Origin: Haliclystus octoradiatus
Taxonomy: Eukaryota > Cnidaria > Staurozoa > Stauromedusae > Haliclystidae
Assembly: GCA_916610825.1 (NCBI GenBank)
Contig: OU744447.1
Span: 7,943,402-8,007,401 of the forward strand
DNA length: 64,000 nucleotides
Reading direction: 5' to 3'
Every line of letters starts with the position of its first letter. Position 1 is the stretch's first letter. Below, piece after piece: positions 18,178-59,036 of this stretch. The translations under genes and the position numbers were made by a program. Below the pieces are notes generated by a model. It had not been told where the DNA came from. It ran no database searches and was given only the letters and a program-made list of their open reading frames with translations.

Positions 18178-21100
18178 TTAAAACTCACTTTTACTCTCTT
18201 TTTCCAATGTGTCCCAATTAATCAATTTATATATGGGACTAGTAAGTTCCATAGGAGCTGTAAATTGTGAGATATATTTCACAGCATTTCCATGCCTGTC
18301 AATCAAATATTTACCAAAATTCCATTGTGGTTCATCACCAGTTGTTGCTTTAAGCCATTTAAATAGAGGATGTGCATCTGTCCCAATAGTTTTCACTTTT
18401 CCAAATATAGTGAATTTAATATTATATTTATCTTGAGCAAATCGTAATATTGCACTTGACTTTTTTGGTTCTTGTTCACCAAATTGGTTACAAGGAAATG
18501 CCAGTATTTCAAAATCATTATTATTAAATAAATTATCAATTTCTGTTAATTCTTTGTAATGGTTATCTGTGAAACCACATTCACTCGCGACATTCACAAT
18601 CAAAAGAGCCTGAAACAGGAAAAACTTAAGCTTAATTTCAGTTTGCATAATCATAGTTCTAATACAAACATAAAATGACAGTTCTTTACGCTAACAATAA
18701 TATTTTAGCAAATGTTAAACGCTCTCTGTGCAATGTGGGTTACATAAACACAACTGTTTCGTTGTGAGACACAACGAAGGCGTAAGACAATCACAAGTCG
18801 CCGCGGCAGTTTCATAACAGCCAGGGTCCGACAAAAGATTCAGCCTTCTGGAATCCTAGGGGCATTTCAACTTTTTCTTCTGAATTTTCTTGTTGAGGTT
18901 TGACCAGAAAATCATTAAAAACATCAATTTTGTTCTGAATTTTGTCTAATCCGGAATCTAGGATCCCAGGATCCCACTTCTGTCGGACCCTGATAACAGC
19001 CTAGCATAGCAAGTGCTTATTACAGTAATAAGATTTTTAAAATAGAAATATATTTTATCTTTCCAACAGATCCTTCCACATGCATTTATATGACGAATAT
19101 GGTCGTAAATGACCACAGATTGAAATATTAATCTAGTCGTAAATAATCACAAATATCGTATCAATAATGGAAACACTTGCATCGTTAAACCTTGATTCAA
19201 ATCCCTTGATTGTAACTTTGCCACTTTTCAAAGTCACCAATTTGTGATTCCAGGGAAAACTAAATTGTATGACCAAATATTTGGGTCTGGTGAGCAATTG
19301 TGATCAAAAACTTGATACCAAAATGTGACCAATCTCATAAATGGGTTGGACAGTATGCAAATTAGAAAGCATTATAATAAAAATATGTATCATTGACAAC
19401 ACAAAATCACCCACTTTATAAAAAGGTAAGCCAGTTTGCAGAGTATGGCAGGGCTACTGCCTCTGAGATAATATTTTAAATCTCTTAAGCCGCTCGGGAA
19501 TTTACAGAAATCAGTTCACTCCTATATTCTTAGAATATTTAGAATAGAATTATTTATTTGAAAAATCAGTTTTTTCCACCAGCGAAGGCAAAAATCATTT
19601 AAAGTGTCTGCAGGCAAATAGCCTGTAGACGGCCCAGATATGTCGTCTAAAAGCAGCCTACTCTACGAACTATCAAGTAGGTATTTAGGAGGATTAGCTC
19701 AGATGACAGAGCAACCAAACTTCAGACCGGATCATATCTGATCGACTGTGGTTCAAACCCCACTCAGCCTTGACTTTATCTCAAAAATCAAACAAGTACC
19801 ATCTGAGGGTGGCGGATGGAATGGTGCAAAGGGAATTGCATTGTGAGTAGTTGCGGTGCATCGTTGCGCATTGACAATCGAGACCTGTCTGCCATCAAAT
19901 CAGTTGAAATTGATCTGCAGTGTCGCGGCTGAGATTAACGTGAAGAACGTTCAAAATCATTGCTCTTAGCGAGACGAGCCACTCCTCTAGAAATAGAGGA
20001 GTGGTACGGGTGCCTTCGGTAGGGCGACACCGTCTACATTACATTAAGTAGGTAGGTTCAGGGTTTGATAAAAGTTGCGATCCTGCAATCATAGATCGCG
20101 GAAGGCTGAGCTAAAATCCGAAGGCAGCCAAGAATCAGCTTTTTTTAAAGATTTCTACTAAATATTAAAATAAAATTATAATCTTCTGATTTCCGAAGCT
20201 TATTTGCACGTTCACAAATCAATAATCAGTATTTGTTTACGTTTACATCAAATTCTGCAATAGTTTCTTTACTAGTTCAAGTCTAAACCGGATGGAGCGT
20301 TGACAATGAAATCAATAACAGACCGCTTTGTTCTGATAATGGATGTAATAGTTCATCGTAAGTCAAGGAAAAAACCCCAAGGTTTCACTTGGAAAATCTT
20401 AGGATCTCGAAAGGCAAAAACCTTTATCGGACCCTGGGTAGGTTTATCTATGGTGTCAACTGCCCCACTTGGAATCTCTAATTAATGTAAGTATTACTTT
20501 TGTGAGAACATTTCTAGACTAATGAAACATTGTGTTTGGATCTTGATGCCAAAAATGCTGAATTCAAAGTTTTTTCTAGGGAGGAGGGCTATACAGACGT
20601 ATTTACATGATGTGTGTTAACAATGGCGTTAGACCTGTGTCACATACTTCACTTCGCTGCGTATAGGGGACATGTAAAAAATAAGGTCAAAAAGTGATGT
20701 GCTAATTTCAGAAAAATGAAATGACCAATCACAGCCAAGCATCTGTGATGTACCTTGGATCTATGCAATGATTGGTCTAATTACTTAACTTATGAATTTA
20801 TTTTGTGACGTATATCATGAGACAACTTGCAACTCCTTCAAGAGCAAAATATTGTTCAAACGTATTTTCAAAGCTCCAAGCAGAGCTACATTTTGCTCGT
20901 GTTGTGAGTGTTTCGTAGTAGTTTAAACCACAGGTTTTGAGCTTTTGAGCTCAATCCTATTTTCATTTAATATATCAACATGCTTCTATTGGGTATTTAA
21001 TTCGTTTTATCTGGATATGTGCCCGCTTTATAAAGTTTATAAACTACCGAATATTGTTACGCCGTTTAATACCCTGGCTCGAATGCAACTTGGATGTGTT

Positions 21101-38359: not shown

Positions 38360-41300
38360 CTAAGTCCATGCTGGTTTACCTTTTACTATATTTGATTTTA
38401 TTGGACCTGTTGGTATAAATTTTGGTTGTACTAACTTCTGAGGTTCATTGGGAATGTCACCTACAAAAGAGATTATCAACTATTTAATATTACAGTAGTT
38501 CACGCAAACAACAATTTATTAGATAATATTAGGTGAACACAATTTAGATTGGTTCAAAAAACAAGAAAGTTTGAAATGTTATAAGACCCATCGATTTTCT
38601 TGTTCAGAATGATTTAAAAATAAATAGTGCTAAAATTTTATTGTTTTGCGCCAGTCTAGACAATCATGTATATGAAAGTTCTGGATGTTCTTGATAGAAC
38701 AGCGCATGTTAGGCCTGGTTTCATACGCCTTTCTGTACATGTGCCTATAACGGTATGATCTCATCAAAGATCGACTTCAGGATAGGCTTTCCGAACGCCT
38801 ACTAACCCGCTGGAATGATCCCATTCGGTGTGGATACATGCAGTGGAAGGAACCACTACGTGTAAGGAACCAATATCAAGAATTTCCAGATATATAGATT
38901 CTTTGCATTAGAGGTCTGGGAATCCGATCCCAATCTGACCAGATTGTTTTCGGATTCAAATGGGTTCTTCTATTTCCGGATCTGATCAGGCTTTTCGATA
39001 TCCATCATATAAATATCTGCTGAGTTATTTGCCTATTTTGACTAATTTATGACCATTACACAGATCCAGAATCTGAATATTATGTTTTGTTTTGATTAAA
39101 TACGTTCGGATTGGGCGGATTCAAAATTTTTGTAAACATTCAGACTGCTAATGCCCAATCCGATCAGATGCAGACCTCTACTTTGTAGGTGCGAATGTTG
39201 AAAATTGATGCCTGATTTAGCCCCAAACCATGATCAGTTTCTATAAGCTCTATCATTCAAAGTTCTAATACAGTCGAACTTGCTTAATATCCCCCCTCTG
39301 GTACAGATCAAAAGCGGGACATTAAGCGAGGTAAGAATACGAGAGTTTGTATAGAGAATTGAAAATGGAAATCAGTTTTACATTAAAAGAGGGGATATTA
39401 ACCGAGTTCAACTGTAACTTTATAAGGGGACAATAGAGACTGTAGGCACTGTACCTTCATCATTCATAGTCTTCCTTTGCCACACCAACAGACTTGCATC
39501 TGCACCACCTACTGTTAATAACAGGCGATCATCAACTGTCCATCTAACATTTGTAACGTGGCTGCAATGACCGCGATATGCTCTAAATTTTGCTCCTTTT
39601 TGTTGCTGTGAATGATGGAAAAACAAACAAATTTAATGAAATTGCTACAGTCGAACTTGCTTAATATCCCCCCTCTGGTACAGATCAAAAGCGGGACATT
39701 AAGCGAGTTAAGAATATGAGAGTTTGTATGGAGAATTGAAAATGGAAATCGATTTTAAATGGGGATATTAAGCAAGGTGGGTCATTAAAAGAGGGGATAT
39801 TAACCGAGTTCAACTGTACTACCTTGTGAACTTTCTTACTTCACTCCAGGGGGGGTGTACTCAAACAGGTTAAAGCTAGATAAACACATTTTATCTAGTA
39901 TTGATTAAGACAGCATCATTCCCACCATAGACGTCTGAACTAATATCCTTTTTCTATAGGAATAGCTAATTTCTCTTGGAGTAATCATGATCAAGCTTCA
40001 GAAACATGAGTGCCATTTGACGTTTATGAATTTCCAACCAATTATTGATTAACTTTTTGTTAACTGTTCATGAAATGTTTATGATTTTGGCAGGGAACAA
40101 GTCAAAATTATTGTGTTTGTTAGGCTGACATAGTTAAAAAGACAATGCCTCATAACTGCAGAGCCTGAGTCAAATTAAAATTCATTCTCCAGATCACGAT
40201 GTTGCAGTCGTCATGGATGCCTTTGATTGACGGCTGTATTTAATATTAACTACTATTCAAAAAGCCGATAAATAGTTTGAATTTATTTATTTCGATTTGC
40301 TTAACTTGTACCACTAGTTGGTTCTTATGGAAACAATTAGATAGATCACCCTGGTTGTCTACCATCGTTAATACCAGTAGTCACCTTGGACTATTTGCCG
40401 GTAGCCAACTTGGGCTTGTTGTCTAATTGTTAAAGGAGCAAAATTGACCAGCAGCCGCTACGCACTTAGGATCACGTGCATGCTTATTGTTTATAACACA
40501 ATGTTCATTGTTGAGATGAATTTTATTACAAATTAGGCCTGCGTATAACAATAGTTTCAAAGCAAGACGGTTGAATTACGCTAAGCATAAATTCAACTTG
40601 AGCTCGCAGCGGTCGCCGGTCAATTTTGCCCCTTTAAATAGTTTAGTAAAATTTTAGTAAAAAATTATGATGATGAAGTAGTAGTTTTGATGACAGTTAC
40701 TAATTCGCTGAAATAGATTAAATAGTCCATGGCACCAGACATAACCAAATAAAGTAGAAGGACTGTTCAACTGCTATACTGTTAAACAAGTTATATCGGT
40801 CACCTATAGCCACCTGTATCACCATGTCATCCTTCGCAATGTCCAAAATAGTATTTTCTATCGACTTAACCCTGTATATAATGCATATACCGGTAGCAGC
40901 AATTTATCCACCTCCCATATCTACCTTCCATATACACTTTTAAATGCCGGTACATGTTTCACTGTAGTAGAAAAATGAGAGCAATATTATATTATCAACC
41001 TACCAAGACAGGATAATTAAATATTTTTACATGTCCAAAATCATCACCAGTTGCAATCAATTGATAATCTTTTGTTCTACAAGCCGTATTAACATCAGTT
41101 ACATCCGACATTGCAGGAAATACACCACGAACGGTTGGACCAAGTACACACGTAAATGATGCCCAGTCAGCACGCGTAATAGCCTCTTGAGACATAACTT
41201 TGCGTTTTCCAGATGGAGATTCAAAAAGAAGATGTTCTTTAGCTCCTGAATTAGTCTGAATCAAATGACCTGCAGAGAAATTACATTGATCAAGAGAGTG

Positions 41301-44300
41301 CCTTATACATTATGTCAGGTAACCTAGCAACCATATTACTCAAGACAGAATGCTACTGGCATTGTCAACTTCCAATATAGTGGCTTAACATAATGAGGTA
41401 TGGGGGAGGTAAGTGCCAGAGCAAGCAAACTTCAAATCTGTGATAGTATGTGGTTCAAATACATCAAGGGTTAACTCAGCCCTGATTTTGTTTGAGCATC
41501 AAACGACTATCACATTGTAATGGTGTATGGAGTGATCGAGAGTTTTCATGAAATGCTTAGATCTTTTTTTGAGGTCATAATTTTAATTATTTTTCTATAA
41601 AAAGGGTAAGATACTGCTAGTAGTTTTCTTCTCATTGGGGTGACAGGTTAGTTGTCCCCCCGCGAAAAACAGTTCATGAACAGTTCATGAATCATGAATA
41701 GTTTATAACAGTACATGAATAGTTCATGAATAGTTCATGAAGATCTGAACTGTTTTTCGTAGGGGTTAACCTGAGATCCTGTGAGTAATCGTACGTAGTC
41801 CCAACCACTACAGTCACTCTAGCATTATGTCTAAATAATATTTTCTATTGAATCAACCCTGTACGGTATATTAATTAAGGTCACCCGCATATAACCGTAC
41901 ATTTCCCAACATCTCATTCAATAAAAATCTCTTCCGTTGCCTGATATGTACAGGTTCATTGTACACCAAGGCCAAACGAAATGCATTACAGTGAAACCTG
42001 TATATAGCGGCCAGCTACAAGAGGTAAATAAATTGACCACTATAGACAGGTGGCCTTTACATACAGGTTTGATTCAATAGAAAATACTATTTTAGTCATT
42101 GCAAGAGTGACCACTATAGACAGGTGGCTGCTGTATAGAGGTTACTATTATAACAGGTTTGATTGTATAAAGACATATTGCGACAAATGCTAAGATATCA
42201 ACACTAGCCATCACTCTTTGAAATAAACATTACGGTATATCAAAGAATGATCATACCTTTTGCATCCCAATCAAAATGAGTGAGATAACTTGAATGCCCT
42301 CTGCAAACGGCTCGTCGTTTTCCTCTTTTCATATTATAAATATCTAACATATTATCATGAGATGCAACGCCAAGATATGAACCATCTGAATAGAATGAAG
42401 CAAAAATGTTTGATGCAAAAATAAAAGAAATATGCAGCAATGAATATAATAATAATAACATTTTCAATAAATTAATAAATGATAATCTAAAATTACAATG
42501 TACAAGAAATTGAGTAAAAAACAGAGTTAAAAATAAAAAGATACAGTATAATAAATTATTATTAATAATTAATGATTATTTTATATAACTGTGCAACTTG
42601 ATCCCATTCAAAATATAAATTATCATTAAAACTATCAACAACAAAAAATTTTGTGATTGGGTTAAAAATAATTATTATATGTCGCATTAAAAACATCCCC
42701 TGCGAAAACAGTTCAGGAGTTCATGAACAGTTTATGAACGTCAAATGGCCCCAAATTTTCATGAACTGTTCATGAACTGTCTGTGAGGGTTCATGAACTG
42801 TTCATGAACATTTCTGGAAAATTGGAGCCATTTAAGCTTCATGAACTGTTCATGAACTTCTGAACTGTTTTTCGCAGGGGAATTAACATGAGTTTTTAAC
42901 TTTGTCTTATATAAGTCAAATTATTTTGATGAGGTAAATATTGTTTAGTAAAAAGTCCCAAAGCAAAGAAGCAGCATAATAGAAAGCCAGCCCTTGATAT
43001 CTATGTCTCTGTAGACTGTACTTCAGCTGCTTCGATATACAACTTTTGTTTGGATTTCTCATTTGTTCACAAACCGGGTAGGCTAGAAGCTTTTATTCAC
43101 TCGGTTGGCTAGTTAATTGTTAATACTAATATTTATAGCCGGATGCCCTTCCTGACGCCAATCAACGGTGCACCTACCAAGGATTTGAACCAAAGAGTCA
43201 ATGCATTGACCCTGCAAAATACAGTTCAGGAAATCATGAACAGTTCATGAACGTTAAATTGCCCAATTTTCATGGATTTGTCTTTTTTCCTAACAGTTCA
43301 TGAAAATTGGGCCATTTATTATTTATGTAAAGCTCATGATTTCTTGGACTGTTCTTTGCAGAGGAAAGACCAATCTGCTAATATATCTTTATAGGGATTA
43401 CAATTCAACAAAAAGATAAACGTATAGAAGGTACACTATGTACGCCAATACTGCACGGTATAAATATATGTACAGTGAAACCTGATATAGCGGTCACATC
43501 TATACAGCGGTCACCTGTCTATAATGGTCACTCTTGCAATGTCCAAAATAGTATTTTCTATTGGATCATCAAACCTGCATATAAAGGTCACCTGTCTATA
43601 GCGGTCAATTTATCTACCTCTCGTAGCTGGCTGTTATATACAGGTTTCACTGTACAGGATAAATTTCTGATAGCAGAAAATTAAATACAAGATATTTTGA
43701 ATTTTACTCATTATCTTGATCGGGTATTAGTACTTTGTTTAAACGATTTCAAAATATGTTTATATATTTTTACTCAATTACTGTCGGTAGTGAGTTTATA
43801 ATGAGTTTATAGTGAGTTGGTTTTTTCATGAAATGTTTGATAAACTCTAATAACATCTACAAACTGTTATTGAATTCTCATCCATCATCAATTCATGAAA
43901 CCCATAAATTAGCATAATTAGTGATAGCATTCACATGGCTATACAGTAAATTTTATAATGATAACGGTATAACAATAAAAGATACCTGGTGAAAATTTGA
44001 TGTCTGAAATCTCTTGCGTCCTGTCTTTGACATGCATCAATGTCTTTAAAGTCTTTGCATCAACAACTGTGAAACTCCCTAATTACAATTATAGAAGAAC
44101 AATTAATTAGAACTATATAATATGATGTGATACATGTTTATATTTCTTGAGATACTGTACAGTCAAACCTGTTATAATGGCCACCTCTATACAGCGGCCA
44201 CCTGTCTATAGTGGTCACTCTTGCAATGTCTAAAATAGTATTTTTTATTAAATCAAACCTGGATATAAAGGCCACCTGTCTATAGTGGTCAATTTATCTA

Positions 44301-47300
44301 CCTCTCGTAGCTCGCCGTAATGTACAGGTTTCACTGGATCATACAAATGTGAGTAGCAATTACAAATCAAAATTTCTAAAAACAAAGTAGCTGATTAAAA
44401 CAAAGGTCACACACTGTTGATAAAAAGCCCTTGTGTTGACACTGTCTTGCTTGGAGTCAACAGTCTAATGTCAAATTTATCTTGTCGAAGGAAACTGTAA
44501 ATGTTCCATTAACTCAAGTTACATTTCTTGTATTAATATAGACGTTGGTCTGCGATCACGCTAAGATTTAATCCAGCCTGTAAGACAAGAGTCAGACAAA
44601 AGGTTAAGTCTTCTGAAGTCCTATAACATTTAAACCTGATTTCTAATTTTATCGCGCCCTGTGTAAAACCCTACACCAGCCAAACACAGATATTAATGTT
44701 TGAACTGCTGATTATCCTTGTAAGCTTATAGTGTCTATAGTGGAATATTAACCTCTAGAGATCAAATGTGTGGCTGTTATATATCAAGAAAAATCAAGAA
44801 ACATAAAAGATTTTTCCTTCCAAGATTCTAAATTTTGCTTTTAAGATTTTTCGGGTGATTAAATCATGTAAATGTTTTCACAGCTGAATATTTTTTGGAG
44901 GCTGTTGTCATAAAATAGGATAAAAACCACAATTTTTTACTCATCTTCCAAAATAAAAGAAAGCAAAATATTTTTCTTCTGATTATAAAAACTTGAATAC
45001 AGCTACTTGTTTGTCTTCCTCTTCTTTCTGGATATGTGCAAGCCTTCTGGGAGTCTCAGTCCAATAATCCTCTATTTTATCCAACCCTGGTTGTATTGTC
45101 ACGCGTTTATATGTCTCATATATACCATTGCTACTAATACTATTACTACTACTTCGGTAATACTAATACTACTATATACAGATTTGAATGTATGAAGAAG
45201 ATCTTATTTACCATCATTTAGACCAACAGCAATTGTTTCACCAGTAGGATGGTAGTCAAGACAACGGCCTCCTTTTTTTAACAATGCAACTTTCTTTAAT
45301 CTATGATCTCTCAAATTCCAAACACAAAGTGTTTTATCATCACTAACGGTGGCGCATTCCATTTTGGATGGATGGGCTGCAAGACCCCAAAGTTCTCCTT
45401 CGCCATGACCCTTAAATAGTAACAACAAAATAAATTGCAATAGCTTTTAAAACAACAACAACAAAGTGCGTGTTTCACTGAAAACCAGGTGACACAATAC
45501 AAACATTTTATAGTGATTTGAATGTATGAATTTCAAAATTGAATTGGACAAATTTATTTGTGTTTGTTTGTATGTGAAATAAAGAATATTCATTTCATAA
45601 CCAAATTTTAACGCATTTTTCTTATAAGAAGATATAAGATGCTCATGCTAACGGGCACTCAAGAAACTAAAATCCTTCTCGTCCCTGACAACCGCTTAGG
45701 CCTACAATTTCTGGGGATCTTTTGTGTTTATGTTTAAAAGGTGTTCAAGAATATTCGGCAATTCACAGATCAATACACCATCCTCAATCAACAAAACAGA
45801 CCTCATTGGCCATTCAATGATATGTAGTAATTAGGATTAGCTCAGATGGCAGAGCAACCGAATTTCCGATCGGACCATATCATATCAGATCGACTGTGGT
45901 TCAAACCCCCCGAAGGTCAACTCAGCCTTGACTTTATCTGAAACATCAAATGAGTACCATCTGATGAGGATGGCGAATGGAATGGTCCAGAGGGAATTGC
46001 ATTGTGAGTAGCTGCGGCGCATTGTTGCGCATTGTTGCGCATTGACAATCAAGGCCTTTCTGCCATGAAATCTGTTGAAATTGATCTGCAGTGTTGCGGC
46101 TGAGATCAACAAAGAGCGTTTAAATTCATTGCTCTCAGCGAAAAAGCCACTCTTCTAGAAATAGAGGAGTGGTACGGGTGCCTTCGGAGGGCGAAACCGT
46201 CTACATTACTTTACTTACTTTATATGATGTAGTGCAGTTTAAGGTTCTTAAATTAATTAACTAATTTACCTGTAATATAACCTCCATTGTACCATCAGCA
46301 TGAATTTGTATAATGTCATCATGTCCTGTTCCAACAAGAATCCGTCCTTCATCTGTATGTATAGATCGTACAGGTGGACAGTCTTGTAAAAGAATAGTTC
46401 CAGCAGGAAATCTTGATGTTTCTATTTGAAATGCACGTAACGGTTGAGAGAAATGCTCATCCCAAATAACAACAACGCCATCTTTGCCACCAGATACAAA
46501 ACCCTGTCAATTAAAACATAAAACGTTTCTTTGTGATCTGAACATTTTTTGATAAAATGACTTGTATACAGTTTGAGTGTACCATATCTTTTTTATTTTG
46601 ACAATATTTACAGTCAAACCTGTTATAACGGTCACCTCTATAAAGCGGCCACCTGTCTATAGTGGTCACTCTTGAGATGCCTAAAATAGTATTTTCTATT
46701 GAATCAAACCTGTATATAAAGGCCACCAGTCTATAATGGTCAATTTATCTACCTCTCGTAGCTGGCTGTTATATACATGTTTCGCTGTATTTTCTTTTAC
46801 GTATTTAATTTTCTTTTACACAAGACAAGCGTTGATAACAGCAATTTTCTGAAGTTTTATCCTTTATAAATTTTTGGAATTTATCACCTGAAGATTGCAA
46901 TTAAACGTGTGAAACTCTGAGTAACGGAAAAAGGCTTTTGCCTCATCTTTGTCTCTTATTAATTATTTGGAATAAATAAATAAATGAAGGATCTTGTGTA
47001 CTAGGCAATCAAATTTTGAGGCACACCTGACAACAGTAAACAGGCTTTTGTAATTTATAACGCTACGTCCGTGACTTTTATTGTTCATATTACACACTAG
47101 ATTATGTAAATTAAATTATTTTTTTTATACTATATATGTCAACTTTAAATTTTTCTTTTTCGCTTGAAAATGATATGTTAAACTGTGCATGGGATATGGA
47201 CTATGTGACCGAGAGTGGTCAATTGATTATTGACGTAGGTATTCCACTAACCTTTTCATTTGATTGTAATATGGCAAAAAGTGCATAGACAGCACCCTTA

Positions 47301-50300
47301 TGAGCGACTGTGTGACCGCGAGTGGTCAATTGATTATTGACGTAGGTATTCCACTAACCTTTTCATTTGATTGTAATATGGCAAAAAGTGCATAGACAGC
47401 ACCCTTATGAGCTTGTATTGATTTTCTATATGTTGTTCCTTGCCACACATAAACATCCCCAGATGAACTACCAGCAAAACAAGTATCTTCATATGGACTG
47501 TGACATATACAAAGCATATCTGATAATTCGCCTGCTTTACCAAACGTTGCAGTCCGTTTATCAATTTTGTTACCTGGAATTAAATTATTCTATAGGTTAT
47601 TATTGCAGGAGTGTATAAGAGATAAGTGTTTTATTTGATCATGATAACATTTAAGCAGGCATATATAGAATGGATAGTTGGCAATGTCAATGTTGCATTG
47701 CTACACAAACAGTTAAATGACCCAACATTTTTGAACTGTTCATGAATAGTTCATATAGTTCGCAAAAATAGTTAACGTTTATAAACTATTCATGAACTGT
47801 TTATGACAGTTCATGAACTGTTATAAGGTTTTCATGAGCAGCTGAACAGTTCATGAAATCAATGCGTTTTTACCTGGGATATGTTGGTTCATTACGGTAG
47901 ATAAAGCGCCACAGAGTCAATTTAGAAATAAAATAGAAATGCTGAAACATTCAAATTGGAGTTCACGAAAAATGAAATAAAAATTTGTGGGAATGCGGCA
48001 AATTTCAGGTTTGATCATATTTATAGACTCTGGCTATTTTATGGTATGTTCGTGAATTTTACAGAAGATAAGCTGTTTGTGGACATTCTCAAGAAGTCCT
48101 CTATTAGAGTTCTGGGTCAGATCGAATTGGTGTTCATCAGTAATCCGAATGTTCGCAACAATTTTCAATCCGAATCCAATCCAATCCGAATGTGTTTTCA
48201 ATCCAGAAAAAATGTGAAACATTTGGATTCTGTGTTCAGAATCCGACTCAAGGAATCCGGATCCAAGTAATGTATAATCTTGTACAGTGAAACCTGTATA
48301 TAGCGGCCAGCTACGAGAGGTAGATAAATTGACCACTATAGACAGGTGGCCTTTATATACAGGTTTGATACAATAGAAAATATTATTTTAGACATTGCAA
48401 GAGTGACCACTATAGACAGGTGGCCGCTTTCTAGAGGTGACCGTTATAACAGGTTTGACTGTACTCTATTTATGATCATAATGATATCAAAAACAATGAA
48501 ATGTTATAAATTTTTTATAAAAAATAGCCCAGATAATTTGGTACAGTGAAACCTGTATATAACGGCCGGCTACGATAGGTAGATAAACTGACCACTGTAG
48601 ACAGATGGCCTTTATATACAGGTTTGATTCAATAGAAAATACTATTTTAGACATTAGAAGAGTGACCACTATAGACAGGTGGCCGCTGTATAGAGGTGAC
48701 CGTTATAACAGGTTTGACTGTAGATACTTATATTGGGGATACTGAAAATCCGATTCGAATCGAATCGGACTTGCAGACAAGTCTATTCTCTAGCATCGAA
48801 ACAAAACCTGTATATAACAACCAGATACGAGGTAGGAAAGTTGACTACTATACACAAGTGGCCGTTATATACAGGGATAATCCAACGGAAAATATTATAT
48901 AAGTGATATCAAGAATGACTGCTGTATATGGGTGGCCGTCATAACAGGTGTGAAAGTACTGCCCGCCTTTTAAATCATTTTTTTACATGTTTGAAAAATA
49001 ATATAGAGATAATAAATTCAAAGACAATTTAATTTGCGCATGCAATATGCACGGACTGCGCAACTGATATACACCGAGGCTGTTACCATCTCTACAATTC
49101 GTTAGCGGGACTTCAGGCGTGATGCCTGACGAGCTACGACATCAGAAAGGTCTCTGATGAGTTCCTTTGGCAGGAACGAAACACGTGTCAGACCAGCCGC
49201 TTTATCAATTTAATTTGCATTTGAGTTTCATAAGCTGAACTTCGTAATAACTAACCTGCTAATGTCCAAAATTTAATATGTTTTACACCAACAGAAGCGA
49301 AATGATTAACATCATAAGGATTCCATTCAAGATTATAAATAATATCTTTATGGCCTCTAAAAAAGTCAAAGAAAATTAAGCAAGCAAATTTTAATATTTT
49401 CTCAAGAGTTTATTCGATACACACCAGTACACAGGAGCACAACACTACTAAATATAAATAAAGTTGATATGTTCAGAAACAGTAAGGCCCCAATTTCCAC
49501 TATACCGATTAGCCATTAAAGCGCAGTAATTTGCGTACCGGTTAGGCATTTGAATTACACAATACCAAAAGTAATTTGGTATACCAGGGTGTTCTAGCTG
49601 AGCCAAATCCTCTCTGCTATATGTACTTGGGTGTATCAATTAATCAGGTACGTCTTTGCTGCCGAGCGTCGTAATGTAACTGGTTGAATCCAGTGTTATT
49701 GTTGCCAATGCCACCTTGTTGCTATACACACATTTTGTTTCTATTAGGGTGCCAATCAACAACTAGTGAATTATAGAATGCGAGGTGATTCAATCTTTGT
49801 ATTCGTCAGAGTTGTGCTAGTTTATTTCCAACAATCAATCCACCATCATTTTCAGTCTGATGATGCAATAATTATCCGGCACGATTTCAATCCAGTATCG
49901 TGGAATCCCCATTTAATTATGCAAAAATGTTGATGTAAGCGGTTATTTTCACCTGAAAGCCTCTCCCTTGTAAAAAAAAACACCATGAATGTGAAAATGT
50001 CCAACTGCTCATGAAACTTCAAAGGAATTGTTCATGAACTATTCATAAAGTTCATGAATTGCTTATGAGGTCAGCATAAACTGTCCAAGGACTCATGAAC
50101 GTTCACTGCATAAATTCGCTGGATGATTTACCTGATGCCGCTATTATTCTACATTTTAGATTACTGCTGCTGATGATGATGAAGATTTTAGATTGATGAT
50201 GAAGTGATCACCGTATACAGATAATTACTATACACATAAATGAACACTAACGAAGATTTGAATCCGTTCAATTGGCCATCATAGAATTAGGGACCACCAG

Positions 50301-53300
50301 TCGAAGGATATAGTATAAATTATTACTTAGGCGTGGAGAACTTGAGATATTTTTAAACGTCTTTGAAAAATTTCTCTCAAAAATAAAATGTCTGCTTTCG
50401 AAACTGTTCAAATAGCCTGTTGGCGTTCTTTTGTCAATCTGCTAATAGACCTACCTTATTGTAGCAATCTTTTCTTGTTTTCTCCAATCCCAAACGCAGA
50501 TACAATGATCATCATCAAGACCAACATCAGCCAATTTTGTTCCATCACCTGAAAAAAATATCATTAAATTGAGTTGCAGCCAACACCGGATTAACATTTT
50601 GACTGCCTATATAAAAAGAGTGAAGAAGGTCTATAACATGTCTCTATTTCCCTCATTTTTCAAAGAAAATAATTTCAAAGGTTTAAATGAGATTAATTGT
50701 GTGCGACTAAGACATTTATTTAAGAACAAAAAATATTGGAATTCATGAACAAGTGAACACAAGATAAAATTTGCTTTGAATTGTAGGCCTACAGTTTTTA
50801 CATTGATTAATATGGAAATATTAAGGAAAAACTATAGATAAGAAAATTAAACAAATACAACTTGATATTTTCCATGTAATCACTTTTAGGTTGAAAGATT
50901 CTTATAAGATATCAAATATTTCTTGTCAATTCAACTTCTAATTTCATTATAGCCCCTTTTATAAGCTGTAAACGTTTAACTTGAAAATAATTGCATGAAG
51001 CAATCGAGCCATTGCTGCTATGAAAAAAAATATCAAATTGTATTCGTTAAATTTCTTAATCAAATCAACTTCAAAGAAGCTTCTAAAAAACTTTATAATC
51101 CTATAATATTAGTTATTGTAAATTATTATATATATTATGTTTTTCCAACTCTACTGGGCTATTAAAATGCTGGGTATATCACGGACATCTGACAGGGGTT
51201 GTCGTTCATCAAAAAAAGTTATTAAAATTCCTAAACAAACACATGAAAAGGGTTTTAGTGTTTAGATAGACACACGACACCATTATCAATTCATACTCAA
51301 ATGCTACAAAGCTACAAGTCCCTTGGAGAATTTTATAAAATGAATTTGATGAATTTTTCAAAATTATATGAACTTTATGAATGTTCATTCTTTATGAACA
51401 GTTTATCGACTTTATAATTTGCTTTAATCAGTTATTAACTTCATAACTGTTGTAATATAGTGTTAGTTACTTTACCCAGTCTCTAAATTGGTTGCTGAAC
51501 TATGCATGGAATTGAAATATAACATTCGTACATATCATATTCGTAAAATATCGACATTCCTTGTACACGGTCAACAAACATATAGTTTGTAAGAATGAAC
51601 CTATCCATGGACCTTTTTATGAATATCACAGAGAAGCTAATACCTGAGAAATCAACACAAATAATTCCACGTTTATGAAATCCTTTCAAAATTGCAACTG
51701 TTTTCATTGTTGATGCATCCCACACATGAGTTGAAGGTGATCTGCCAACCTAATACCAAACAATCAGAATAAAATATATAGAATAATAGGCTGAAATACA
51801 AGAGAATATGTATACTTTACATAGACCTGGTGAAGCACTTTCAAACAAATTGAAAAAGTGCTTTATAAGTACATAAACTATGATTATTATACTACAAGGT
51901 TAGCATGTGAGTAGGTTAAGTCACACACACTTATATTTACATTGAACTGAGTCTAGGATAGTAATGGAAAGATAATCTAAACACTACAAACCTTGAGACA
52001 TTGAAATCTTACTGAAAACCTACTTCAAACTTAGTGGATTAGGATAGGTCACTGAATTAGATATGATATAGTATATTTATGTAATGTTACGTTTGATCAT
52101 TCTTGGTTCCTTGTTAAGAATCATGTTACCCATTGACGTAACATGCCTCAGTTTGTTCCTTGTATCTGTTCCGTGATTGAGTCAATCTAGTTTTACTTAC
52201 GTTGTTTGTTATTGTAAGCAATGCTGAGTAGTAATTCCATGCATGTTTTCAGTTTTGTATTATTGATGTAATGCTAACTTGTAGTTCCTCTTTAGTAATT
52301 ATAAAGTCCTAGTAAATTGTAAACTTAGTCAGTTGTACAGTGTACATTGTGTTAAATAAAGCTATCAGTAACCAACTAGCGTGTCTTGCTTGCGCTGTAC
52401 AATACGTGGTATCACAGATACAATACAATTGGATACAATTAAGTACAATTTCAGTTTCAATGTGCCTTCCTTTCAGTAGTTTACCGTTATTATGAGCAGA
52501 ATCTAGATAATTATTTAGTTTTCCTGGTAAAAATCAGTAGGCCTACCATTACATTGAGCTAAGAATCCTAAGATTGTGAATTACAGTAAAACCTGTATAT
52601 AGCAGCCAGCCATGACAGTTAGATAAATTGACCACTATACACAGGTGGCCTTTGTATACAGGGTTAATTCAATAGAAAATACAATTTTATTACTAAAAGA
52701 GTGACCATTATAGACAGGTGGTCACTTTATAGTGGTGACTGTTATAACAGGTTTGGCTGACATGATGAAACACAAATGTCGATCCATTCTTCAGATCAAG
52801 TTTGACTTTCTTAGGAATAATAATCATTACATAGGGTCTCACAATTCACATGGTAGGTAGAAGGGGTCCAACATTGCGTAATAGTGAGCAGCAAAAATTA
52901 TTGATATTTTCTATTTGTAGGCCGAACCTCAACAATAAACCTTGAAACAAAAAGTGGACAATGTCTTGGAATCCCAGAAGGTTAAACTTGTGTGAGATAC
53001 TGATCACAGTAAAATACAAAATAATTTTGTAACATAAAACAACTAGATTGAGCCTACCTGTCCAGTGGCAACATAGTCTTCTGAATCATGAATCGTTAGG
53101 CATAGAATATCATCGTCATGGCAATTATAAAATCTTTGCTCATGCGTCCGTTGACTATATATGATTCCTAACCCAGCAGTATGGAAAACAATCTCATTTG
53201 ATTGGGTGTAAAATAAATTATTACATGCGTTGAAACCATGATACCTATCAATCAAAACAGACGTTAAAATAGAAACGCATAAAAAAAAGAGCAAACAATA

Positions 53301-56255
53301 GGTAGGCTGAGAATATATGTTCCCGTCAAAATGCAATTTCTGCTTTTGCTAGCATAGAAAACTGCCAAACCACTATGAAGACAGTTCATGAATATCAAAT
53401 GACCAAATGTTCATGAATAGTTCCACAACAGTCCATGAAAATTTCGCAATTTAACGTTCATGAACTGTTCATTGTATTGTTTTTACAAGGTTCATGAACA
53501 GTCCATGAAGTAAACAACTTTTTTGCATGGGATAACATACAAAACGGTTATAAACCAGTTGATCAAAAGTTCATGAAAGTGGAATTCCGCCATATTCACA
53601 TTTATGACTAAGTTGAAAAACAATAACATAATAATTGTTCATGAACTCAAAAAAAAAATTACAGATTGCAATTACAACCTATACAGGCATTTATTTTATA
53701 CAATATTGTAAAACGCCCTCGGATTAAACACTTGGAAAGAGCGCTATATAATTGAAGTTATTATCATTATTATTATTAAAAATTAATGTTCATGAACTCA
53801 TGAAAACTATTTTGCAGGGAAAGTGAGTGGTTGTGACCCTGAAAGAGTAATTGTTAATGAATTTGTAAAATGATTGCAAGTGTGAAATAAACATATATTT
53901 CACAATAGCAGTTTGATTGCAAAATAAGGATTAAGTAAATTTAAGTTAATTATATGGATAGGCCTATGGTTGCTCTCACCTTTTAGGCATTAACACTTGT
54001 TTATACAAGGAGGAAAAGAAAGTTTGTTTTAAAATAGAATTGAAATATATTTGCTTTCTTTAAATTACAAAATAAAATAATGTAATTAGTAATGAGAAAA
54101 AAAATATAATACTAAATAAAAAAAAATAAAAAAAAAATAATAATAAAATATAATACTAAATAAAAAAAAATAAAAAAAAAATAATAATAAAATATAATAC
54201 TAAATAAAAAAAAATAAAAAAAAAATAATAAAAAAATATAATACTATAGTTCATGAACAAAAAATGGAACAATTTTTCTGACATCCATGAACAATAAATA
54301 AAAAGGTATTTAAAGCTTATGAATTTTTCGAATAATTGCCCATATGTTGAATTTTTACAAAGGCATTTGCTATAAAGACCCAATTAGCCTACATTTAATG
54401 TCAATAGTTAGAAGCCTGGCTATATCAGCTTATTTTCATCAGGTTGGTTGGTTAGTCAGTTGGTATTTTGAAGTGTGTGCGAGCTTAATGGCTGGATGCC
54501 CTTACTGGCGCCAATCAATAGTGCTTCTGCAGGGAATGAACCCAATACCCTGAGGCCCGAGGTTGAACGCATTGAATCATAACCGCTGTAAGGCCTCATT
54601 TTCTTCAACAGAAAAATCTCACATCACCGTTCAAAGAGACTATCACTGAAACCAGGGTTTGACAAAAGGTCCAGTCTTCTGGAATTCTAAAGACATTTCA
54701 ATATTTTCTTCAAAATTTTTGTTGTTGATGTTTCACCAATAATTAATTAAAGATATCAGTTTTCTTCTGAATTTGATTTGGCTTTTTGGGATCTACGATT
54801 GCAATTGCAGGATTCTTACTTTTGTCGAAGTACATAATAATAAAGCGAGACAACATATACTCACTATTGAGGGATCCTTGAATAGAAAATTATATGAAGG
54901 GGCATGGGCTCAACAGAAGCGCATATTACTATTACACATACCTTATTCTATTGTGAATGAATTGGGTCTGCGACGCAGAATATGCACTGGAACTAGCTAC
55001 AGGCCTTTTTTATTTCTAGCTGAGTTTTAACAATAAGAGCCAGGAACTAGTTCCGATTAAAAATATTTTTTGACTCTAATTAGTTCAGAATATCATGGTG
55101 AATAATTGTAGACTATTTTCAGTAATTACCCGATAGTAAAAGTGTCCGTATGATTGTTTGATTTTTTCAATGGGACTATACTACAACACAGATTGTAGAT
55201 TTGCCTGTGACGCAGGGTATCAATCCCAAAACCGTAAAAATATTTTTATCGATCTAATATTAACTATTAACTGTCTGGAGACATGAAAACATTATCAGCT
55301 GCCTATTTAAAAAAGTATAGCCTAATAGAAGCTTATGTCCTTACCCAAATGCAAATTTGAGTTCAAGTCCCTCTTTGGGCATTGTACCAGATTTTTCTGG
55401 ATTAATTAATGCGCTTTCAATATTTTCATTTCTTGATATAGTTTGACTACCGTCTTCAATAGTCTGCCCACTTTTCAATAATTTATTTGGTGAAAACGGA
55501 CATTTGTGTACTGCATGAATATTTGTTAAACACAATTCACATGATTGTGAAGTCCTTAAACGAATGGAAGCAGCCAATGTAAACAATTCCTCATCAACAA
55601 TATTCCAATTAGCAGCATGATCCCATGATGCTTTTCGTCTAAAACCTATATCATATCTCCACCATGTTTCTGGATCTTGTGATTCCCTGTACACCCATAA
55701 TATAACTCTTTGATAATTTAATAATTCGATAATTCGTGTCGGATAACCACGACTTATAACTGAACAATAGACAGCGTAACAATCTAGCCAAACTAATATA
55801 TCTTTACGTAAAGTATCTTTCATTTGTTTTGGGAATCCAGTAAACGACATTGTTCTTGATAGGATTGACATAAAATCAACATATTTACCAGCGGATATAT
55901 CTGATTGAATATCTGGCGGTAAGGCAGGAAAATCTGGTCCCGAACTTCTAGCTCCCAGTAAAGATCTTGGTCTAGAATCCATACTATTTATAGAAGTGTT
56001 CAGTCTCTGTCCGTTTTCAACATTTAGAGCATTTGTACCCCTCATAAGGTCATTTATATCATCAACACCAGAATAATTGACAGACGAATTCATGGAATAT
56101 CCAAGTGGATCTCCTGCAAGTAATGTTTGGGAAGAGCTCAGCTTTAAATTCGGTTTGCTTGGTGGTGGTTTTACAAGGCCTTCCCAAGCGGGTGCTTTCG
56201 GCGAACGTTTCTTCGTAGGAGTGCTACTGCGACCACCATTACTCTTTGAATACAT
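38360..56255 (-). CDS. Gag-EML fusion: DIRS-type Gag-like domain with zinc knuckle joined to EMAP-like (EML) WD propellers
   Basis: Exons (minus strand, 5' to 3'): 55345-56255, 53058-53244, 51644-51749, 50455-50548, 49256-49356, 47359-47573, 46270-46503, 45212-45410, 43986-44078, 42257-42385, 41004-41269, 39455-39605, 38360-38460. All have GT-AG borders with agreeing phases; 2787 nt, 928 aa. Residues 1-110 are a Ser/Pro-rich basic linker. Residues 112-255 match Gag-like ORF1 of DIRS/Ngaro retrotransposons: [35 protein letters not shown] and a CX2CX4HX4C knuckle (C239, C242, H247, C252). Residues 296-304 ([10 protein letters not shown]) begin the EML HELP motif, continued in exon 2 as [14 protein letters not shown]. 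Two seven-bladed WD propellers follow ([63 protein letters not shown]), the tubulin-binding TAPE domain of EML proteins. The usual N-terminal trimerising coiled coil is absent, its place taken by the Gag-like part. Confidence 0.92.
38910..39180. repeat. TA-flanked MITE with GAGGTCTG ends
   Basis: ttAGAGGTCTGGGAATCCGATC is mirrored by GATGCAGACCTCTA, bracketing about 271 bp rich in ccgatc/gatcagg. It lies in the last intron of the EML gene. Related gatccgaatc-type sequence occurs near 16510-16860 and 48105-48260. Confidence 0.55.
39271..39414. repeat. TA-flanked MITE with CAGTCGAACTTGCTTAATAT ends, copy 1
   Basis: CAGTCGAACTTGCTTAATAT is mirrored by ATATTAACCGAGTTCAACTG between TA dinucleotides. 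Copy 2 at 39648-39816 is almost identical, and the EML exon 12 lies between the two. A third, decayed copy is at about 29320-29468. Confidence 0.75.
39648..39816. repeat. TA-flanked MITE with CAGTCGAACTTGCTTAATAT ends, copy 2
   Basis: Same orientation and ends as 39271-39414, with about 25 bp of extra inner sequence. It lies 43 bp upstream of the EML exon 12 acceptor. Confidence 0.75.
40434..40633. repeat. TTAA-flanked MITE, 200 bp
   Basis: AGGAGCAAAATTGACCAGCA is mirrored by CCGGTCAATTTTGCCCCT, with TTAA on both sides (40430-40433 and 40634-40637). TTAA duplication points to a piggyBac- or Kolobok-mobilised element. Confidence 0.75.
40779..40967. repeat. Pogo-like 177-bp MITE, decayed copy
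   Basis: Recognisable by ttatatcggtcacctat, ccaaaatagtattttctat and the terminal catgtttcactgta. Many substitutions suggest an older insertion than the neighbouring copies. A second decayed copy spans about 41810-41962. Confidence 0.55.
41395..41545 (+). repeat. Decayed tRNA-SINE, copy 4
   Basis: The 5' half only: ccagagcaagcaaacttcaa, B-box-like tgtggttcaaatac and ggttaactcagccctgattt match the SINE head and start of body; the 3' hairpin part is absent. Confidence 0.5.
41657..41766. repeat. TTCATGAAC MITE, short copy
   Basis: ccccGCGAAAAACAGTTCAT to GAACTGTTTTTCGtagggg inverted ends enclose only about 70 bp of ttcatgaa-rich sequence. Confidence 0.65.
41989..42165. repeat. Pogo-like 177-bp MITE, full-length copy
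   Basis: CAGTGAAACCTGTATATAGC at the left and TATAACAGGTTTGATTG at the right, between TA dinucleotides, about 90 bp downstream of EML exon 10. Confidence 0.85.
42699..42880. repeat. TTCATGAAC MITE, most complete copy
   Basis: CCCCTGCGAAAACAGTTCA is mirrored by TGAACTGTTTTTCGCAGGGG, so the family is a MITE-like inverted-repeat element whose interior is made of TTCATGAA palindromes and aattggagccatttaa-type spacers. Confidence 0.7.
43473..43652. repeat. Pogo-like MITE, full-length copy (180 bp)
   Basis: CAGTGAAACCTGATATAGCG to ATATACAGGTTTCACTG, TA-flanked, inside an EML intron. Confidence 0.85.
44160..44336. repeat. Pogo-like 177-bp MITE, full-length copy
   Basis: CAGTCAAACCTGTTATAATG to TGTACAGGTTTCACTG, 82 bp upstream (in gene sense) of EML exon 9. 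Confidence 0.85.
45834..46222 (+). repeat. tRNA-derived SINE, copy 2
   Basis: A box TAGCTCAGATGGCAGAGC, B box GGTTCAAACCC, the same body as copy 1, and a GAAA-capped hairpin with one G-U pair. A short internal duplication (gcattgttgc repeated near 46018-46040) makes it longer. Its tail ends tacattactttacttacttt, about 48 bp from EML exon 7. Confidence 0.85.
46611..46787. repeat. Pogo-like 177-bp MITE, full-length copy
   Basis: CAGTCAAACCTGTTATAACG to ATATACATGTTTCGCTG, TA-flanked, about 110 bp upstream (in gene sense) of EML exon 7. Confidence 0.85.
47204..47412. repeat. Tandem duplication of the 3' end of EML exon 6 and its splice donor
   Basis: A 102-bp unit occurs at 47204-47305 and 47311-47412 (period 107 bp) and is nearly identical. 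On the minus strand each unit encodes [17 protein letters not shown] followed by GTTAGT. The upstream copy (47311-47412) is the real exon end; the second lies in the intron and carries a ready-made second donor. Confidence 0.85.
48285..48461. repeat. Pogo-like 177-bp MITE, full-length copy
   Basis: CAGTGAAACCTGTATATAGC to TATAACAGGTTTGACTG between TA dinucleotides. It is followed 82 bp on by another copy in the same orientation. Confidence 0.88.
48544..48720. repeat. Pogo-like 177-bp MITE, full-length copy; best family example
   Basis: CAGTGAAACCTGTATATAAC is mirrored by GTTATAACAGGTTTGACTG with TA on both sides. The interior repeats the end motif (gaccactatagacaggtggc twice), so each half resembles an inverted end. 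CAGT-plus-AACCT ends with a TA target match pogo/Tigger-type non-autonomous elements. A decayed third copy follows at about 48803-48957. Confidence 0.88.
49088..49215 (+). repeat. Hammerhead-bearing repeat (retrozyme- or Penelope-like fragment)
   Basis: About 125 bp shared, in opposite orientation, with 8590-8702. 5' part: acaattcgttagcgggactt and a TCAGGC-GTGAT-GCCTGA hairpin; 3' part: the ribozyme at 49149-49194. It lies just upstream of the EML exon 5 donor side (minus gene), so EML pre-mRNA carries its antisense. Confidence 0.75.
49149..49194 (+). ncRNA. Type I hammerhead ribozyme, canonical core
   Basis: Stem I GGTCT (49149-49153) pairs with AGACC (49190-49194). CTGATGAG (49154-49161), stem II TTCCT/AGGAA with loop TTGGC (49162-49176), CGAAA (49177-49181), and a minimal loop-less stem III from ACACGTGT. 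The cleavage triplet is GTC, with the cut after C49189. Every invariant core letter is present. Very short stem III is known from hammerheads of Penelope-like elements and animal retrozymes, which are thought to cleave as dimers. Confidence 0.85.
52085..52414 (+). mobile_element. Copia-like LTR with adjacent primer-binding site
   Basis: The segment opens TGTTACGTTT and ends GCGCTGTACA (52401), with an AATAAA-type signal (gttaaataaagc) near its 3' end. Five bases later comes TGGTATCA (52407-52414), the first eight bases of a primer-binding site for initiator-Met tRNA. No retrotransposon coding follows, so it is a truncated 5' end. It lies in an EML intron. Confidence 0.6.
52584..52759. repeat. 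Pogo-like 177-bp MITE, slightly decayed copy
   Basis: CAGTAAAACCTGTATATAGC to TATAACAGGTTTGGCTG, in the same EML intron as the LTR. Confidence 0.8.
53698..53780 (+). repeat. CR1/L2-like 3' tail
   Basis: ggaaagagcgctatataatt followed by (ATT)n resembles the 3' end of CR1/L2-type LINEs and SINEs. A similar tail (aaagtgctttataagtacat) is at about 51838-51890. Confidence 0.4.
54098..54245. repeat. A-rich minisatellite, three units
   Basis: Three tandem units of about 52 bp, each with tataatactaaat, two A-runs and a taat string, in the first intron of the EML gene. Confidence 0.85.
54649..54832. repeat. hAT-like MITE, older copy
   Basis: CAGGGTTTGACAAAAGGTCC at the left and cttacttttgtcgaa at the right correspond to the family at 18822-18992. 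The right-most bases and target duplication are lost. Confidence 0.6.
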
Positions 56256-57166: not shown

Positions 57167-58303
57167 TTAAATCCAGGCATGAAGAAACGGCAAGATAAAT
57201 ATGATCCCCAAACCAATATTACCAGTGTGAAGATGTGCTGCTCCAGAGTAGTAGGTAATACTTGTACAGTTTAAGCATTGACATTTATTTGTCGGTGTAT
57301 TCTCATGACACATAAGTTTACAGTCTCCAGTAGGACAGTATAATTCAGTGACCTGTGTTTGTTTTCCTGATTTTAATGTACATGATCCTTGTGGACAGTC
57401 TAGAAAACAAGCTTCACTATCACAATTAACATCGCAACCACTTTGACATGCCGATCTACATTCTTTTCCATTGCAAGTAATACTACAATTTTGAGAGCAT
57501 TGTAGGCGACAGTTCTCACTCTCGCACTTGATTGGACAAGAACCGGTTCCTTTACACATTTGAAGGCAAGCCTGATGAACAGAAACAAATAATGTATCAA
57601 AGGAAACCAAGCCTATATCAATAATTGCAGCAATGATTAGGAAGAAAGTAGAATGTCTGACAAAAAATGCAACTTTATACTTCATAGTCCGATGTGCATA
57701 TATTACAGGGAAAATGTCTAACATCGGTTCAGGCAGCAGAACGGTACCGGATGCATAGCATAGGATAGGCATTGTAAGCTGCAAAAAAGGGCGGGGGCAA
57801 ACCGCAAAACTGCAAATCGAATATCTCACTTTGTTCAGCTTTTGATTCTAAGAAGGATTAATACTAATTACTAAGTTCTAGGAAAATTTGTCAAGCAAAT
57901 CTTCATCTGTACAGAAATGCAAATCGGCCGGATTCCGGAATCAGCTTCTATTTAAATGAGAGTGTATAATCAGAATGTTGGGAAAACAGCCTCAAAGTGA
58001 TCTGGAAACAAAACCATCGAGATAATTCAAGAAAAAACCAACAACATCAGTATTTTTACATACTTTTCCTTTACAGTGTAGTTCTCCACAGTTTCCAACC
58101 GGACAATCTTGACGACAAGAAGCAGAGGGCTCATAACAGTTTGCTTCGCACGGAGTTTTGTTACATAGTTGATTGCAGAACTGGGTGTTATTCATGATCC
58201 CACACGTTTCCAGCTTGCATGGAGTATATGTACAATTTCTCGTTTCGTCTGCTGCAGCATATGTGAGTAAAATAGAAGTTATGGCAAGCTTTAGAAAATC
58301 CAT
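57167..58303 (-). CDS. Cysteine-rich, probably GPI-anchored surface protein
   Basis: Two exons on the minus strand: 58064-58303 and 57167-57571, phase 0, 214 aa. An in-frame ATG five codons upstream (58318) is possible, but MDFLKLAITSILLTYAAADE from 58303 is a clean signal peptide. The mature part has about 32 cysteines in short repeats such as CXXXC-X3/4-C (CRLQCSQNCSITC, CRSACQSGCDVNC). It ends with a small-residue site (YYSGAAHLH) and a hydrophobic tail IGLGIIFILPFLHAWI, the layout of a GPI-attachment signal. I do not recognise the family. The regular cysteine spacing suggests stacked small disulphide units. The gene starts 133 bp from HDDC3 on the other strand, so the two may share a promoter. 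Confidence 0.8.
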
Positions 58304-58436
58304 ATTGATCGTGATCATGTCCTTCTGGTCTTGTCAAGAATCGACAATGAAAATTTTATGCGGATCTGATCAGAAAATGACACCATTCTCATTTCAGTGT
58401 AGAATGAAAAATAATTCTGCAAGAGGTAAATCGTAG
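58304..58436. promoter_or_regulatory. Compact divergent promoter between the cysteine-rich gene and HDDC3
   Basis: Only 133 bp separate the two start codons, so core promoters and both 5' UTRs overlap here or within the opposite gene. No TATA box is obvious. Confidence 0.45.
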
Positions 58437-59036
58437 ATGGTAGCAAGAAGCGAAGAAAATCGAACAATTTCAATAGACACGTTTTTGATCATGGATGGTA
58501 TTCCTACTTCTCAATTACTTGGAGCAATTAATTTTGCAGCAATTAAACACAAAGATCAGAGGCGTAAAGATCCAAATAAAACACCATACATAAACCATCC
58601 AATTGGTGTTGCTTACATCTTAAGTAATGAATGCCAAGTTACAGATAATGATGTTTTAATAGCTGCAGTTTTACATGATACTGTGGAAGATACGGAAACA
58701 ACTTTTGAAGAATTAACAGAAAAATTTGGAGAAAAAATATCTTTGATTGTTAAAGAATGTTCTGATGAAAAACATTTATCAAAATCAGAAAGAAAAAGAT
58801 TACAAATTGTTCATGCAAGTTCGTGTAGTTATAAAGCAAAATTAGTTAAATTGGCTGATAAGTTGTATAACTTAAGAGATCTTGAACGGGCCACACCTGA
58901 AGGTTGGACAGAAGAAAGAGTTACAGAATATTTTTCATGGGCAGCAAAAGTGATTCATGAAATGAAAGGAACAGATGAGATTTTAGAAAATAGTCTAAAC
59001 AAAATCTTTCTTGCTCGAGATTTAATTATTGAGTAA
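58437..59036 (+). CDS. HDDC3: HDDC3/MESH1 (HD-domain metazoan SpoT homologue 1)
   Basis: A single uninterrupted 199-aa frame. Family blocks in order: QRRKDPNKTPYINHPIGVAY (41-60), LHDTVEDTETTFEEL with the HD pair H80-D81 and E84-D85, LSKSERKRLQIV, KAKLVKLADKLYNLRDL with D141 and N145, and TPEGWTEERVTEYFSWA. These provide the Mn2+ ligands (H54, H80, D81, D141) and the catalytic acids. MESH1 hydrolyses the 3'-pyrophosphate of (p)ppGpp and, in animals, dephosphorylates NADPH to NADH. Known homologues start close to the second Met (58491, MDGIPTSQLL), so the first 18 residues may be untranslated or an extension. A poly(A) signal AATAAA lies at 59066. The lack of introns contrasts with every neighbour. 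Confidence 0.95.
   Translation: MVARSEENRTISIDTFLIMDGIPTSQLLGAINFAAIKHKDQRRKDPNKTPYINHPIGVAYILSNECQVTDNDVLIAAVLHDTVEDTETTFEELTEKFGEKISLIVKECSDEKHLSKSERKRLQIVHASSCSYKAKLVKLADKLYNLRDLERATPEGWTEERVTEYFSWAAKVIHEMKGTDEILENSLNKIFLARDLIIE

Follow-up and report, generated by a model that had tools for sequence, protein, structure and literature searches.

Does a Gag-like domain of retrotransposon type belong to a microtubule-binding EML protein in the staurozoan Haliclystus octoradiatus, and if so, where did both parts come from and what might the domain do there? The question was raised by a first-pass annotation of a 64,000-nucleotide stretch of contig OU744447.1 (positions 7,943,402 to 8,007,401 of the forward strand), hereafter the window. 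It proposed that a Gag-like domain carrying a zinc knuckle is spliced onto an EML protein, that the domain was domesticated, and that it took the place of an oligomerising N-terminus. Here, we examine the gene model, its relatives in other Cnidaria, the resident retrotransposons of the same genome and the descent of the EML part.

Results

One gene encodes a Gag-like domain and a single EML unit

The minus strand of the window carries a 12-exon gene (56255-39420) with a product of 906 amino acids (Table 1). All of its introns are GT-AG and the frame is kept at each junction; they lie at residues 304, 367, 402, 433, 467, 539, 617, 683, 714, 757 and 846. At the 55345/53244 junction exon 1 joins exon 2 in phase 2, the HELP motif being completed across it, and ten further in-frame exons lead to the stop codon. 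The first-pass annotation was right in its exon coordinates, in the number of in-frame exons, in the exact CX2CX4HX4C motif and in the splice itself.

Table 1. Features of the Gag-EML gene, with positions in the window.
Feature	Position	Strand	Remarks
Exon 1	55345..56255	-	911 nt, from ATG to GG|GTAAGG donor; residues 1-303 and two bases of 304; in order: disordered basic N-terminus, Gag-like domain, knuckle, linker, first HELP residues
AWEGL short motif	56175..56189	-	residues 23-27, outside the Gag domain
Gag-like domain	55497..55919	-	residues 113-253; invariant residues, homology to resident Gags, all-helical AlphaFold model
Zinc knuckle CX2CX4HX4C	55500..55541	-	residues 239-252; in 11/11 listed relatives holding the N-terminus
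First residues of HELP motif	55345..55379	-	inside exon 1; end at the phase 2 donor
Exon 2	53058..53244	-	remainder of HELP and first blade
Exon 3	51644..51749	-	
Exon 4	50455..50548	-	
Exon 5	49256..49356	-	
Exon 6	47359..47573	-	
Exon 7	46270..46503	-	
Exon 8	45212..45410	-	
Exon 9	43986..44078	-	
Exon 10	42257..42385	-	
Exon 11	41004..41269	-	
Exon 12	39420..39605	-	with stop codon at 39420

Residues 290-888 align end to end with the HELP motif and double propeller of human EML1 (PDB 4ci8, E 1.1e-112), and the HELP profile PF03451 scores above its cut-off (29.8 versus 27 bits) at C2:7996564-7996644, which is within exon 2. Judged by sequence, the product has the two intimately packed propellers of a TAPE structure. 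The gene model has one HELP-TAPE unit and not three, and so does every one of the 11 relatives with this N-terminus. The AlphaFold model of the Gag domain is confident and all-helical (pLDDT 87.7), and that of the corresponding Montipora domain reaches a pLDDT of 85.6. Comparison of both models with PDB structures, and of the first also with BFVD, brought out no decisive match to a retroviral-type capsid fold. With 17 K+R and 16 D+E, the domain is not strongly basic. A crude heptad score found no good heptad stretch of a coiled coil before or after it.

Two kinds of repeat were observed in this part of the window. Intron 1 contains a 44-base A/T tandem repeat (54101-54246; 3.3 copies, 99% match). 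Dispersed short repeats of about 140-220 bases lie at 52596-52743, 54653-54826 and many other places, and are shared with the surroundings of one resident retrotransposon, L037.

The fusion is shared by Anthozoa and Medusozoa

A search with the spliced protein returned 143 proteins. Among the best 120 of them, a long N-terminus with CX2CX4HX4C is found in 11 and in none of the other 109, one of which (P0054) resembles a relative cut at the N-terminus. The named carriers belong to Rhopilema, Hydra, Nematostella and Montipora (two proteins). Relatives such as those of Hydra (59% identity) and Rhopilema (61%) cover 98-99% of the spliced product. The database names of the carriers read "echinoderm microtubule-associated protein-like 6" or similar, and Gag is absent from the names shown. 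A region search with one relative, P0032, returned P0032 itself and nothing else.

When the window sequence and eight of the eleven relatives are aligned over the full Gag region, 20 residues are invariant, including all four zinc ligands; P0039, P0041 and P0042 are near copies of P0040 and were excluded from this alignment (A1) and from the pair counts. For the latter, P0032 and P0038 were assigned to Anthozoa and P0002 and P0006 to Medusozoa, on the basis of sequence identity and tree position. Over 20 anthozoan-medusozoan pairs, identity is 33% in the Gag domain, 16% in the 112 residues before it, 14% in the 40 residues after it, and 62% in HELP-TAPE. Invariant residues among the nine sequences are distributed in the same manner (20/141 in Gag, 1/112 before, 1/40 after). 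The Gag domain thus appears to be under constraint and its flanks not, since a neutral spacer would show no such island. The short motif near the N-terminus recurs in the form [PA][WY][ET]x[LM] in all nine compared sequences, the window included.

Because the fusion occurs in both Anthozoa and Medusozoa, it predates the split between them. It is of the same age as crown Cnidaria, a long-established component of cnidarian biology and not a recent accident. A neutrally evolving or recently inserted exon 1, which the first-pass annotation had named as fatal to its proposal, is contradicted by this conservation. There was likewise no sign of an upstream EML exon with a coiled coil, and the first methionine of the eight compared relatives aligns with that of exon 1.

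Five relatives (P0006, P0032, P0038, P0039 and P0041) are proteins of 959-970 amino acids on contigs of 3.0-3.9 kb without introns, whereas the window gene spans 17 kb. As an eleven-intron gene could not be read from 3.0-3.9 kb of genomic DNA, spliced transcripts are the most likely origin of these contigs and an intronless copy the less likely one. Another idea would be that two separate neighbours, or a gene and a recent insertion, were misjoined by the gene model. Full-length proteins of equal layout exist in the four named cnidarian genera, exon 1 itself ends in the start of HELP, and the Gag domain is constrained, so that we give this idea almost no credence.

The N-terminal domain is related to Gag of tyrosine-recombinase retrotransposons

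The genome (261,861,806 bases, 33 contigs) was searched with the domain of P0032, which gave 113 matches. The EML exon was the best of them (5.7e-20) and the others followed from 1.3e-12, many in open frames of 250-420 residues. The domain of the window gene (P0122) gave 110 matches, itself included, the best apart from itself at 7.0e-9. A profile built from nine EML N-termini only (the window and eight relatives), with no retrotransposon sequence in it, recognised all 29 retrotransposon loci tested and none of 1785 decoys, which were shuffled or reversed sequences; the 29 loci had been chosen for matching P0032 (30 loci of the 113 matches, one being the EML exon) and are not an independent sample. 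The Gag origin proposed for exon 1 is supported by this result, and the idea of domestication by the conservation and constraint of the domain described above.

Four elements were fetched with 8 kb each. In three of them Gag is followed, in the same orientation, by RVT_1, RNase H-type and Phage_integrase matches, although the L038 integrase and several RNase H matches score below the Pfam curated cut-offs; the fourth has no ORF for any of the three. The RNase H and recombinase ORFs overlap in L036, L037 and L038, leaving no space for a methyltransferase between them. According to PMC4157794, Ngaro and Viper are set apart from DIRS chiefly by the absence of that domain, and the overlap would suit elements of Ngaro type. 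More than 100 Ngaro/DIRS-type Gag matches occur in the genome (e.g., L007-L035), many with equal score and an open frame; these elements may have been active recently.

In an alignment with 20 distinct retrotransposon rows, 10 of the 17 EML-invariant residues that could be tested recur in 80% or more of the rows, compared with 19 of 132 columns overall. Identity between the window domain and the resident Gags is only 16-23% in this alignment. The profile match to resident Gags mostly ends at position 121-126 of 147 (maximum 138) and does not include the complete knuckle. Beyond it, the resident Gags have two fingers, a Cys/His finger and, after it, a terminal CX2CX3HX4C, whereas the fusion has a single one, CX2CX4HX4C. 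Zinc fingers are variable or lost among tyrosine-recombinase elements, according to PMC4157794. The different knuckle of the resident Gags implies that the one in the EML gene came from another element family or has changed since, and by these comparisons the donor family is not found among the resident elements. A tblastn search of the window with eight ORFs of three elements found only Gag, with no other match under E 1. The missing reverse transcriptase and recombinase beside Gag are as expected for a domesticated copy.

The direction of transfer could also be the reverse, with a domain of cellular origin captured by retrotransposons. The Gag tree leaves room for this, as it cannot be rooted: the nine EML rows split from the 20 element rows with support of 100/100 in a tree that is unrooted, with long branches and elements from one genome. 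We nevertheless regard a cellular origin as very improbable. The domain is present in several element families of this genome, and the fusion gene is the only host gene recognised in the part of the genome matches that was examined. Furthermore, the knuckle is in 0 of the other 109 among the best 120 EML relatives, and the EML5/6 and EML1-4 genes of H. octoradiatus are separate genes.

The EML part points to the middle unit of an EML5/6 gene

Two further EML genes lie elsewhere in this genome: EML5/6, with three units, on contig C4, and EML1-4 on C1. By profile score, the unit of the fusion is nearest to unit 2 of EML5/6. In a tree of units, nine fusions form one clade (SH-aLRT 100) which groups with unit 2 (100), the window sequence standing with scyphozoan and hydrozoan sequences; this was a quick tree with SH-aLRT only, a long-branch warning and fragments for the EML genes of H. 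octoradiatus, and unit 2 alone has a support of 10. The fusion unit would accordingly branch either within EML5/6 unit 2 or beside it.

Ten of the 11 introns of the fusion have a counterpart in the EML5/6 unit 2 of the same genome that agrees in position and phase, for one of them to within a residue. Of these ten, a script located 8, among them the one that deviates by a residue; another (FSPG|E, phase 1) was assigned by visual inspection, and the HELP intron was read directly from the sequence and checked again. Of the introns located in unit 1 (9), unit 3 (6) and EML1-4 (4), not one matches the fusion in both residue and phase; those that fall in gaps between fragments (unit 1, one; unit 3, two; EML1-4, four) were left unplaced. 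The nearest intron from outside unit 2, in EML1-4, is one base away from a shared one. At the start of HELP, unit 2 has an intron of the same position and phase, where units 1 and 3 have none. The EML5/6 exon ahead of this first shared intron encodes the stretch that links unit 1 to unit 2, and it too ends in the start of HELP with a phase 2 donor. Intron 5 of the fusion (47574-49255; residue 467, phase 1) is absent from the EML5/6 unit 2 of this genome.

The shared introns imply that unit 2 was copied as DNA, introns included, and they point to the EML5/6 middle unit as the source of the EML part. This changes one element of the first-pass proposal, in which a coiled coil was taken to be normal for EML proteins and Gag to have replaced it. 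According to PMC4761370, EML1-4 do carry a trimerising coiled coil, but the EML5/6 class is without one. A unit descended from EML5/6 had no such oligomeriser, and the Gag domain would have been added to it and replaced none.

Other features of the window

Several open reading frames lie outside the fusion gene. On the plus strand, 58437-59036 is a single open stretch of 199 amino acids with an HD_4 domain (E 1.4e-21), presumably a MESH1-type ppGpp/NADPH hydrolase, and 12176-13273 has a glutamate-receptor ligand-binding match (PF10613, E 2.8e-18). On the minus strand, two adjacent cysteine-rich ORFs (57167-57847 and 57992-58333) gave no Pfam match and possibly encode secreted proteins. A glutathione peroxidase ORF (18181-18690, minus strand; E 1e-30) contains VASECGF, which we take to suggest the cysteine form.

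Discussion

A domesticated Gag as a possible oligomeriser of a microtubule-binding unit

We are highly confident of the identity of the fusion and of its history: a Gag of tyrosine-recombinase (Ngaro/DIRS) type sits on a cnidarian EML gene. Taken as a whole, with the role included, this explanation is probably correct, at a clearly lower level of confidence. The results support the following sequence of events. A DNA copy, introns included, was made of the middle HELP-TAPE unit in an EML5/6 gene, and a Gag coding sequence came to occupy the exon that ends with the HELP start, with neither reverse transcriptase nor recombinase left beside it. The fusion was already in place before Anthozoa and Medusozoa separated, and it has since been maintained by selection acting on the Gag domain and its knuckle.

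The most likely role of the Gag domain, to which we give about an even chance, is to self-associate and so bring single microtubule-binding units together in multimers. A lone TAPE unit would otherwise be monomeric; through self-association of the helical Gag core it would gain an avidity like that which the coiled-coil trimer provides in EML1-4. Contact with the microtubule may be made by the disordered, basic N-terminus together with the propellers, and the knuckle could bind RNA or a protein partner. The Gag domain is not strongly basic, and RNA binding is therefore a guess.

It is conceivable that RNA is instead the main business of the domain, and that it binds RNA or RNPs via the knuckle and carries them along microtubules. 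The strict retention of the four zinc ligands (11/11 relatives) would fit this, as would weak matches of knuckle type to a Lin-28A-like protein (one of nine members, E 0.006) and to eIF3g (profile, E 0.043). Retroviral knuckles have a glycine before the histidine and an aromatic residue, however, and the knuckle of the fusion has neither. Fingers of this size bind proteins too, and the near balance of charges in the domain also speaks against such a carrier, which we hold to be unlikely.

Another possibility is that of a restriction factor, in which the captured Gag co-assembles with particles of related retrotransposons, tethers them to microtubules and so blocks their transposition. Captured Gags that act against their relatives are known in vertebrates, and the resident elements of H. 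octoradiatus, with their many open Gag frames, may be active. Yet at the identity found between the domain and the resident Gags co-assembly is unlikely, and restriction factors usually evolve fast, whereas this domain was held in both Anthozoa and Medusozoa. We judge this role improbable, and more so than that of an RNA carrier.

A bolder form of the multimerising role can be considered. On microtubules, Gag might still self-assemble into an ordered lattice or shell, oligomerising the protein without a coiled coil and recruiting RNA as well, in what would be the first known host gene built on the Gag of a tyrosine-recombinase retrotransposon, fixed before crown Cnidaria. This stronger version is doubtful. 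If true, it would mean a cnidarian cytoskeletal structure absent from other animals.

Comparison with known systems

Among EML proteins, the middle unit of EML5/EML6 is closest to the fusion in score, tree place and introns, and its class is without a coiled coil (PMC4761370). The layouts differ: EML5/6 are built of three consecutive units with no Gag domain, the fusion of one unit behind a Gag N-terminus. In having one unit the fusion resembles EML1-4, where a HELP-TAPE unit also follows a separate N-terminal region and a Ser/Thr-rich linker; but EML1-4 have the trimerising coiled coil (PMC4761370) and no Gag, and no placed intron of the EML1-4 gene of H. octoradiatus matches the fusion in residue and phase. 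On the retrotransposon side, some 120 residues are homologous to Ngaro/DIRS-type Gag, and both have W, R, L, Y, W, YD, R, A and W in common. The fusion differs in being a host gene, the window yielding neither a reverse transcriptase nor a recombinase, and in its single knuckle of other spacing.

An exchanged EML N-terminus has a parallel in Drosophila DCX-EMAP, an EML protein with a doublecortin N-terminus that is itself a microtubule binder; there the new part is doublecortin and not Gag. Gag domestication itself is a known theme. Arc, PEG10 and the SIRH/PNMA proteins derive from LTR (Ty3/Gypsy) elements and are mostly stand-alone. They have in common with the fusion that a Gag is kept by the host for its own use, whereas the Gag of the fusion comes from the tyrosine-recombinase class and is joined to a cytoskeletal protein. 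We know of no Gag domestication from that class, and of none fused to EML; no published description of a Gag-EML fusion was found in the titles and abstract starts of the open-licence literature.

What the fusion adds to this theme is a donor from a poorly understood class, a microtubule protein as partner, and an age equal to that of crown Cnidaria. It provides a natural test of whether this type of Gag still self-associates under host keeping, and Hydra and Nematostella allow gene knock-down. The conserved sequences offer, in addition, a way into the structure of a type of Gag that has been little studied.
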